Shown: positions 4,284 through 18,727 of the stretch, piece after piece
Layout: each line of letters begins with the position of its first letter
Position numbering within the stretch: the first letter of the stretch is position 1
Virus record (IMG/VR): IMGVR_UViG_3300035670_001057
Coordinates: 1 to 27,335 of that record
Reading direction: 5' to 3' (one strand)
Origin: a virus
DNA length: 27,335 nucleotides
Position numbers and translations under genes: made by a program
Notes under the pieces: model-generated
Seen by the model: only the letters and a program-made list of their open reading frames with translations
Database searches by the model: none
What the model was told of the DNA's origin: nothing

Positions 4284-4319
4284 CCATCGTCGTGTTATGA
4301 TTTCAAAGCTTTCGCGAAG

Positions 4320-4462: not shown

Positions 4463-4547
4463 GCCCTTGTAGCAGAACTGGTTTATGCAACGGATTTAAA
4501 ATCCGTAGAGGACTCTCCTCATGTGGGTTCAAATCCTGCCAGGGGCA
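4463..4547 (+). tRNA. tRNA-Leu(UAA)
   Basis: The acceptor strands GCCCTTG (4463-4469) and CAGGGGC (4540-4546) pair, with one G-T pair; A4547 is the discriminator. The anticodon stem ACGGA/TCCGT (4490-4494, 4502-4506) encloses the loop TTTAAAA, with T at position 33 and anticodon TAA at 4497-4499. A long variable arm and the T-loop TTCAAAT mark a class II leucine tRNA. CCA is not encoded. Phage tRNAs usually supply codons that are rarer in the host. Confidence 0.88.
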
Positions 4548-4566
4548 TCATGCTAAGCTGAAGATA

Positions 4567-4620
4567 CGTTCGCTCCAGCGATGGAGTGCATGACAATGCG
4601 GCAGGGAACGGGGCCGCATT
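4567..4620 (+). promoter_or_regulatory. H-type pseudoknot leader, possible riboswitch, before the 39-aa peptide
   Basis: CGTTC (4567-4571) can pair with GAACG (4606-4610). Between them, CTCCA/TGGAG (4573-4577 with 4582-4586) form a GCGA-loop hairpin. AATGCGGC (4595-4602) pairs perfectly with GCCGCATT (4613-4620), and this 8-bp helix crosses the first. A crossed helix just upstream of a short ORF is the layout of cyanobacterial/cyanophage glutamine-II (glnA / Downstream-peptide) RNAs; the conserved core sequence as I remember it is not obviously present, so class and ligand are open. Confidence 0.45.
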
Positions 4621-5881: not shown

Positions 5882-5910
5882 GGTTCAATGGAGAAGAAGA
5901 ATCATCATAG

Positions 5911-5979
5911 GACAGCCCCAGGAATCGAACCTGGCATTCTGGGCTATCTGCCCAACGTGTACCACAACACTTAACCGTC
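5911..5979 (-). tRNA. tRNA-like element, possible tRNA-Ile(GAU) with A at position 33
   Basis: On the minus strand GACGGTT (5979-5973) pairs with GGCTGTC (5917-5911) through three G-U and four Watson-Crick pairs. Then come a D-arm GTGT-TGTGGT-ACAC, an anticodon stem TTGGG/CCCAG, a 4-base variable loop and a perfect T-arm CCAGG-TTCGATT-CCTGG. The 7-base anticodon loop reads CAGATAG, giving anticodon GAT but A rather than the near-universal U at position 33. The total is about 69 bases and no CCA is encoded. It may be a decaying tRNA or a tRNA mimic. Confidence 0.55.
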
Positions 5980-11609: not shown

Positions 11610-11839
11610 CGGACTAGTTCAGAGAACACGCCCATATAAAGGGAATCCAGTGCCAAAAGCTAGTGCTGATCAGCCATAGTGATCGTTCAACCCTGGTTTG
11701 GCCACTTATAAGCGCCTACGCTTATCAGTGCCCGATCTGCAGCGGAATGAAAAGCCAGGCTTATCAGTGGAACGGCCTTTATCACGAGACGCGGCGAAAA
11801 CGCCAACGGCTTAACGTATTGAAATATATATACTCAACG

Positions 11840-12090
11840 CTGAACAGTAGGCAACAGCTAACGCCGAACAGTAGGCAACAGCTAACGCGCAACGGTGAGG
11901 CTCACCTAGTAGCGCACAGTAGGGCTTACCTAGCGGCGCACGGTGAGGCTCACATAACGCGCAACAGTAGGGCTCACATAGGCTCAAGCAGTAGGGCTCA
12001 CATAATGGCGCACAGTAGGGCTCACCTAGTACGGAACAGTAGGGCTCACTTAGCACGGAACAGCAGGGCTCACTTAGCGGCGCACAGAAT
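11840..12090. repeat. Array of about ten ~24-base degenerate repeats
   Basis: Units vary around RCRCACAGTAGGGCTCACNTAG, starting with two copies of AACAGTAGGCAACAGCTAACG. Spacing is mostly 22-27 bases. On the minus strand each unit reads GTGAGCCCTACTG. The regular period of about two helix turns suits an array of protein-binding sites. Confidence 0.8.
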
Positions 12091-17591: not shown

Positions 17592-17620
17592 ACAATAGAG
17601 CTACTGCACGGCGTTGTCAA
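17592..17620 (-). promoter_or_regulatory. Strong sigma70-like promoter, cassette copy 5
   Basis: Minus strand TTGACA (17620-17615), a 17-base spacer and TATTGT (17597-17592). It identifies TATTGT as a real -10 element. It sits in the 3' end of the 63-residue gene and is followed by GTTCCC/GGGAAC and GGCCCC/GGGGCC hairpins before the ATG at 17516. Confidence 0.75.
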
Positions 17621-17792
17621 GGGGATCAACTGGGAAGCCGTTGGCAATGCGGCAATAGCGTTCTGGGTGGAGCTTTAGGCATTTTGTCAAGCCCTCTTGG
17701 TTTGGCATTGCTTGAGGAGCAGCCACCAGAGCAAAGGCACCAAGCCCAAGGGCGCAGGTGACAAGCATGAAAGAAGCAAGGTTTTTAGCCAT
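17601..17792 (-). CDS. 63-residue exported small protein
   Basis: ATG 17792. The N-terminus (KNLASFMLVTCALGLGAFAL then VAAP) is a signal peptide or anchor; cleavage after Ala-x-Ala is plausible. The mature part is about 40 residues with two cysteines (KCLKLHPERYC) that could form a disulphide in the periplasm. It starts four bases after the RlpA-like gene, so the two are probably expressed together and act outside the cytoplasm. No family recognised. Confidence 0.7.
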   Translation of the reverse strand: MAKNLASFMLVTCALGLGAFALVAAPQAMPNQEGLTKCLKLHPERYCRIANGFPVDPLDNAVQ

Positions 17793-17796
17793 GATT

Positions 17797-18153
17797 TCAG
17801 AGGCGAGCGATACAGACGCGGGCAGTGCCTTGGCTGGGTGAAGCAATCTTTGAGAAGCTGCCATAGGACAAATCGATCATGCGTCCCCCGTAGTATGGGC
17901 CGCGATCAAGGATGGTCACCACAGTCTGCTTTCCATTGTCACGGTTCGTTACAAGGAGGCGTGTGCCAAATGGAAGCGATGGGTGGGCGGCAATGGAGCC
18001 GTAGGCATTAAATCGAGCACCACTAGCGGTGCGCTGTCCGTCGTAACCATCTCCAATGCCATAGTGCGAGGCGGTGCCGCATTGCCTTGCATGAGCAGGC
18101 GTTGGGAAAAAGGGAGCGAGGAGCAGAAGAGAAAGAAGAAATCGTGAAAGCAT
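17797..18153 (-). CDS. RlpA-like double-psi beta-barrel protein with signal peptide
   Basis: 118 residues from ATG 18153. Residues 1-22 form a signal peptide (LSRFLLSLLLLAPFF..PAHA). The rest carries the RlpA/DPBB pattern: GTASHYGIGDGYDGQRTASG, RFNAYGSIAAHPSLPFGTRL, VTNRDNGKQTVVTILDRGPY and GRMIDLSYGSF. The Asp of ILDRGP and of MIDLS are the residues usually placed in the active groove. RlpA proteins cut peptidoglycan glycan strands lacking stem peptides; the SPOR domain is missing. In a phage, a role in lysis or wall remodelling is likely. It begins a two-gene exported operon. Confidence 0.88.
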   Translation of the reverse strand: MLSRFLLSLLLLAPFFPTPAHARQCGTASHYGIGDGYDGQRTASGARFNAYGSIAAHPSLPFGTRLLVTNRDNGKQTVVTILDRGPYYGGRMIDLSYGSFSKIASPSQGTARVCIARL

Positions 18154-18199
18154 CAAGCTGGTGAAAAGAACTAGAGAGGCCCATCGCCATCGCTGACGA

Positions 18200-18228
18200 C
18201 AGTCTTACCATTGTGCCATGGCTGTCAA
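18200..18228 (-). promoter_or_regulatory. Putative promoter for the RlpA operon
   Basis: TTGACA (18228-18223) on the minus strand, followed at 16 bases by AAGACT. The -10 match is weak, but NANACT-type -10 elements recur in this window (CATACT, CACACT). The -35 overlaps that of the divergent plus-strand promoter. Confidence 0.4.
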
Positions 18229-18250
18229 GGGGCTTGCTGGGTGCTATGCT
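18222..18250 (+). promoter_or_regulatory. Putative promoter of the plus-strand ncRNA
   Basis: CTGTCA (18222-18227), a 17-base spacer and TATGCT (18245-18250), with TG two bases upstream of the -10. Predicted start near 18257. Confidence 0.55.
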
Positions 18251-18256
18251 TTGAAA

Positions 18257-18473
18257 GCAGTCGGTTCTAGCGGCTTAATTGCTGCTCCTGTCGTAAGGCG
18301 GGCCGTGAGGGTGAACGGGCATAGGCAGTGTGGGTGATGCCGTATGGCTTCGCCAAGGAGCTAGTCATTCTCCTGAGAGGCACACTGCCCTTCTAGGCGA
18401 GGAGATTTCCCCTAGTTGTTTTTGTTCATCGGAGGCTGCGCAAGGGAGGGAGGGCGAAAGCCCTCCTTTCTTT
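18257..18473 (+). ncRNA. Candidate ~217-nt structured non-coding RNA
   Basis: Bounded by the promoter at 18222-18250 and a strong terminator at 18449-18473. GCAGTC (18258-18263) can close with GGCTGC (18434-18439). GGCAGTGTG (18324-18332) pairs perfectly with CACACTGCC (18381-18389), enclosing two hairpins, GGC-TTC-GCC (18346-18354) and AGGAG/CTCCT (18356-18374), as in a three-way junction. A further stem CTAGG/CCTAG follows. No convincing ORF: the only ATG frame (18218-18337) begins inside the promoter. It does not match a class I can name; 6S-like or phage-specific RNA are options. Confidence 0.6.
18449..18473 (+). terminator. Intrinsic terminator of the ncRNA unit
   Basis: GGAGGGC (18449-18455), loop GAAA, GCCCTCC (18460-18466), then TTTCTTT. 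Confidence 0.88.
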
Positions 18474-18480
18474 GTGCCTA

Positions 18481-18526: not shown

Positions 18527-18727
18527 ATGGAAAAGAAACTGTCTAAAGAGCAAGAGCGTGAACGCCTTGCACGATGGCTAGGAAAAGGAGAAGTTTATAT
18601 TCCACCGAGCGAAGAAGTTTATGATCCTCGCAATGAAGATGATTTTGATACGTGGTCTGTAGGCATGGAGCCTATTCCTGGCGATCATACGTGGGCAAAA
18701 GAAAAGGCTCCTGATGGAGCCTTTTGA
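18527..18727 (+). CDS. 66-residue acidic hypothetical protein
   Basis: ATG 18527. The N-terminal half is a charged helix (KLSKEQERERLARWLGKGEV) and the rest is acidic with VYDPRNEDDFDTWSVGMEP. The last codons (KAPDGAF) form the arm of the bidirectional terminator, so coding sequence and terminator overlap. It is an isolated plus-strand gene between minus operons. No family recognised. Confidence 0.7.
   Translation: MEKKLSKEQERERLARWLGKGEVYIPPSEEVYDPRNEDDFDTWSVGMEPIPGDHTWAKEKAPDGAF
18702..18725. terminator. Bidirectional terminator
   Basis: AAAAGGCTCC and GGAGCCTTTT flank a 4-base loop. The T-run serves plus-strand transcripts (TTTTGATT) and, read the other way, minus-strand transcripts (TTTTCTTTTG) from the convergent operon that ends at 18748. 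Confidence 0.88.

Follow-up and report, generated by a model that had tools for sequence, protein, structure and literature searches.

What lies between the gene for an exported RlpA-like protein and the next gene of the opposite strand in a Synechococcus phage relative? The sequence-only reading of this locus described a plus-strand unit bracketed by a promoter and a terminator, with strong pairing around two hairpins, without a credible open reading frame (ORF) and divergent from the RlpA-like gene. The window, i.e. the whole stretch of DNA analyzed, is a virus record of 27,335 bases whose large terminase (TerL) is 77% identical to its homologue in Synechococcus phage S-CBS4, which identifies it as an S-CBS4-like siphophage. 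Comparison with relatives indicates that the window encodes here a discrete, non-coding structured RNA of ∼217 nt, the length originally proposed, and it is close to certain that this RNA is conserved and structured. The same comparison points to a conserved fold, promoter element and terminator, with neither a conserved reading frame nor a fixed neighbor. Coordinates are collected in Table 1.

Table 1. Features of the RNA locus in the window and, in the last rows, of an element found in related loci
Feature	Position	Strand	Remarks
Structured non-coding RNA (predicted)	18257..18473	+	CM match 18249-18480, 213.6 bits; covariation; ends approximate, from sequence
-35-like CTGTCA	18222..18227	+	weak; 17-nt spacer to -10; not conserved in relatives
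Extended -10 promoter element TGCTATGCT	18242..18250	+	motif and register conserved in relatives
P1, 5′ strand GCAGTC	18257..18262	+	pairs with 18434-18439 GGCTGC
P2, 5′ strand GTTC	18264..18267	+	pairs with 18313-18316 GAAC
Hairpin P2a	18269..18286	+	from alignments
Hairpin P2b	18287..18302	+	from alignments
Hairpin P2c, CC-GNRA-GG	18303..18310	+	CC/GG pairs invariant in all aligned sequences
P3, 5′ strand	18317..18322	+	pairs with 18423-18427
Stem GGCAGTGTG	18324..18332	+	exact pairing with CACACTGCC 18381-18389, enclosing two hairpins
Hairpin P3a	18333..18354	+	from alignments
Hairpin P3b	18356..18374	+	loop GUCAUU in window, GCAUGG-like in most relatives
Junction strand AUCGGA, P3 to P1	18428..18433	+	identical in all aligned sequences
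Intrinsic terminator	18438..18477	+	also conserved by comparison
Exported RlpA-like protein, divergent	17797..18156	-	Pfam DPBB_1, E 1.4e-20
Small protein with EPIPGD motif	18527..18727	+	next downstream gene; neighbor, not part of RNA
∼78-nt element, L059	4565-4643	-	
∼78-nt element, L101	11963-12039	+	
∼78-nt element, L146	2909-2985	-	
∼78-nt element, L086	1921-1997	-	
∼78-nt element, L136	5853-5928	-	
∼78-nt element, L133	2023-2087	-	

The overall fold is a closed three-way junction of helices P1, P2 and P3, in which P2 comprises three hairpins, one of them the invariant CC-GNRA-GG, and P3 two or three. Compensatory double changes are found at five of the six P1 pairs, at all five P3 pairs and, among relatives, at six of the eight aligned pairs of the GGCAGTGTG/CACACTGCC stem, the pairing noticed at the outset, which proves exact; a comparable 9-bp repeat arises in 1.7% of dinucleotide shuffles. 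Within P1, 66 of 68 sequences form a U-G wobble at one of the pairs. P2 takes the forms GUCC/GGAC, GUUC/GAAC and GCUU/AAGC in relatives and, judged by eye, GCUC/GAGC in marine members. The invariance of the AUCGGA strand is an unbiased result in the set found through RlpA only, since the patterns that retrieved the later members include ATCGGA. Mutual information revealed no convincing additional helix or pseudoknot.

A check of the structure on homologues had been advised, and it bears the fold out. In an alignment of 34 homologues made by sequence only, standard pairs fill 98.8% of the cells at 47 core pairs, against a mean of 84.2% in shuffled controls and at most 48.7% for slid structures, and 32 of these 47 pairs show compensatory double changes; none of 500 shuffles reaches the real value on any of five measures. 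As the structure was derived from this very alignment, the comparison favors it over its slid versions. A further alignment, whose 68 distinct rows were fitted to the model and hence lean towards it, displays double changes at 48 of 58 pairs and a covariation score of 0.640 versus 0.239. Folding energy is less informative: the z of -4.1 for the whole unit is mostly owed to the terminator, while the body without it is unremarkable (z = -1.4 in the window; mean z of -0.9 over 26 diverse members), which rules out folding energy as proof of an RNA. It is covariation in the aligned sequences, and not folding energy, that is taken here as the proof of a structured RNA.

The promoter and the terminator of the unit are also retained. 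Of 65 distinct upstream regions, 91% contain an extended -10 element, in the variants TGCTATGCT, TGTTATGAT and TGCTACTAT, at 7-10 nt 5′ of where the aligned RNA begins, compared with 1.8% of random 36-mers; no conserved -35 was found among the same 65 regions. Generic scans for promoters and terminators missed both signals of the RNA, so that the case for a transcription unit rests on comparison. No conserved reading frame was found across the homologues, and the 39-aa frame at 18218-18337, which starts 5′ of the -10 and is not conserved, can be discarded as a product, in agreement with the sequence-only reading. The opposite promoter, supposed to overlap at the -35, is a more nuanced case. 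The minus strand does contain TTGACA at 18228-18223, but no -10 hexamer follows at a distance of 16-18 nt, and the overlap is thus not established; instead, an extended -10-like TGnCACAAT at about 18218-18210 recurs, by eye, in many relatives. As the annotation of S-CBS4 includes no RNA polymerase gene while this phage carries a putative Srd anti-sigma factor, the host RNA polymerase is the likely transcriber, and the RNA is probably made by it.

About 100 viral records carry the RNA, according to a hand tally over several searches, one of them based on TerL. Around RlpA relatives from viral contigs, it lies divergent from and adjoining RlpA in 46 of 80 loci; an RlpA-independent pattern scan added a second subfamily, and the marine members (L264, L268, L275 and L288), which are relatives of L130 and L162, came from two looser scans. 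Each of the 25 records tallied holds one strong match, and of the nine TerL-positive records that reach 66 kb or more, eight contain the RNA. The ninth is devoid of the RNA, of RlpA and of a neighboring gene, which suggests that this record lacks the region altogether. The RNA constitutes a family strongly supported by covariation, and one clade of Synechococcus phages carries it throughout in a single copy. Among other annotated phages and plasmids, the RNA was found in S-CBS4 only; a match in a Serratia phage is a 30-nt terminator. The S-CBS4 copy (HQ698895, 64496-64734, minus strand) is flanked by gp092 and the ‘rare lipoprotein A’ gene gp093, in an interval without any annotated feature. 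S-CBS4 is the sole isolate with the RNA, and as it was isolated on strain CB0101, the making, timing and binding of the RNA are directly testable there. On chromosomes, a pattern that misses divergent members, and by which alone the Synechococcus genomes were covered, gave 14 matches in 84,980 genomes, one of which is the RNA. This copy (NYTN01000042.1, 20.5 kb; L162) belongs to a ‘Rhodobiaceae’ MAG and is accompanied by S-CBS4-like phage genes, which makes a binning artefact likely, the other possibility being a hint of a wider host range.

Neighboring genes are less constant than the RNA. RlpA adjoins it divergently in 85 of 93 loci and is not beside it in L130, L133, L264, L268, L275 and L288; its place is taken in L130 and the marine members by the gene of a small, probably exported Cys-peptide. 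Reciprocally, five cyanophages carrying RlpA (S-CREM1, S-PM2, S-CRM01, DSL-LC07 and S-CBWM1) match the RNA model with less than 19 bits or not at all, compared with 186 bits for S-CBS4. RlpA is thereby ruled out in both directions as an obligate partner, and the co-regulation envisaged earlier is not supported as an obligatory link. The EPIPGD gene shares the direction of the RNA in 70 loci and is inverted in 14; in nine others it was not found, although these contain enough sequence. The next gene on the downstream side is often convergent. Since many loci have the downstream gene inverted or lack it, and some lack RlpA, no gene qualifies as a single cis target. The RNA is the constant element while its neighbors change, so that it would most likely be free-standing and act in trans.

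Several small elements accompany the RNA. A small protein with a DPRN...EPIPGD.TW motif occurs beside it in either orientation, and the copy in the window has no Pfam or PHROG match. At 17601-17864 (minus strand), the window encodes a small Cys-containing peptide (...LHPERYCRIANGF...), probably exported, and a divergent ORF resembling it is present in L130, L264, L268, L275 and L288. Directly 3′ of the RNA terminator, six loci share a second conserved element of ∼78 nt with a core hairpin AGAGC-AAUCA-GCUCU, in which no conserved ORF and no Rfam match were seen.

The RNA had been called unassigned, and it remains so after a search of all Rfam. At gathering thresholds, Rfam 15 yields no match at the RNA in the window and 11 related loci, and low-threshold searches return sub-gathering matches alone, mostly on the terminator. 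Neither ARAGORN nor Rfam detects a tmRNA or a tRNA at this place, and no open-access paper combining S-CBS4 with ‘non-coding RNA’ was found. Against Rfam 15 and the open-access literature, the family is new by its fold and sequence; novelty is claimed for these and not for a kind of function. Cyanophage RNAs present in Rfam comprise wcaG, manA, PhotoRC-II, glutamine riboswitches, abiF and CFrI, which are likewise structured and found in phages of picocyanobacteria (PMC2864571, PMC9964418). They are, however, mostly cis-regulatory and from T4-like phages, whereas the S-CBS4-type RNA comes with a promoter and a terminator of its own and is not tied to one downstream gene. Phage T4 itself encodes, in its tRNA cluster, the stable RNAs C and D, for which no function is firmly known; they are smaller than the S-CBS4-type RNA, and no sequence or structure match to them was found.

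How such an RNA may act can be outlined from its conserved motifs and structure. The host RNA polymerase with its primary sigma factor would start transcription, which we infer from the sequence, at the extended -10 promoter, and the intrinsic terminator would release an RNA of about 215 nt. This RNA would fold into the closed three-way junction, with the invariant AUCGGA joining strand, the invariant CC-GNRA-GG hairpin and an apical loop of GCAUGG type, and would then bind a protein or a complex, most likely of the host transcription, translation or RNA-decay machinery. Its branching and its invariant junction motifs are in keeping with recognition in three dimensions. Action in trans, as a decoy or scaffold that binds a protein of the host machinery, is given about an even chance. 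Tentatively, and with somewhat lower odds, it may represent a new functional class, namely a compact, tertiary-folded phage RNA that takes over a host ribonucleoprotein or polymerase complex in trans, or that is catalytic, and that would be unrelated to any RNA family described so far.

Other explanations have been weighed against this decoy or scaffold. Stable small RNAs with terminators commonly act by base-pairing, and the P3b loop is kept as GCAUGG in most relatives, so a trans-acting antisense RNA whose exposed loops pair with mRNAs of the host, or of the phage, close to their start codons comes next, although it is rather unlikely: the loop differs in the group of the window itself, and conservation lies mostly in junctions and helices. 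Stretches complementary to the RNA are not in excess in the phage's own genome (window and S-CBS4), which speaks against antisense action on that genome. A catalytic RNA or a packaging RNA is more doubtful still. The invariant AUCGGA, the U-G wobble of P1 and the GNRA hairpin suggest a tertiary fold, and the packaging RNA of phi29, a structured phage-encoded RNA containing a three-way junction, is of similar size. Yet phi29 is a phage of a different type, no Rfam ribozyme or pRNA matches the S-CBS4-type RNA, and the latter is not beside the terminase genes but, in S-CBS4, far from them (terL at 5.4-6.7 kb, RNA at 64.5 kb).

The sequence-only reading had proposed binding to the host RNA polymerase as a test of a 6S-like role, in which the RNA would mimic an open promoter. 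Both RNAs measure ∼200 nt, stand alone and are made by the host polymerase, as predicted for the phage RNA, and such a role would suit a phage that relies on this polymerase and has a putative Srd anti-sigma factor. The idea is nevertheless improbable, as 6S RNA (RF00013) is a rod with a large central bubble whereas the phage RNA is a three-way junction with side hairpins, and as no Rfam 6S match appears at E≤10 in the window or at gathering in the 11 related loci. No better prospects are given to a cis-acting leader, riboswitch or attenuator of the EPIPGD gene: its multi-helix, aptamer-like fold, the terminator directly after it and the prevailing co-directional arrangement speak for it, but the loci where this gene is inverted or absent, and those where the next gene is convergent, largely refute it. 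Finally, chance inverted repeats and a terminator in an intergenic region, with no functional RNA at all, would agree with the non-significant folding energy of the body, but this reading is hardly credible in view of covariation beyond both controls, the fixed register of the promoter and the persistence of the element next to changing neighbors.

Elsewhere in the window, an extended -10 of the same type as the RNA promoters (GTGTTATGAT, 4292-4301, plus strand) is located ∼160 nt upstream of a tRNA-Leu (4463-4547), a glutamine-II riboswitch (4564-4619) and a short ORF; taken alone, its occurrence is within chance expectation. A tRNA-Ile called by ARAGORN at 5910-5979 (minus strand) is not confirmed by Rfam and is possibly false. 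Degenerate tandem repeats of 24 nt occupy positions 11836-12087.
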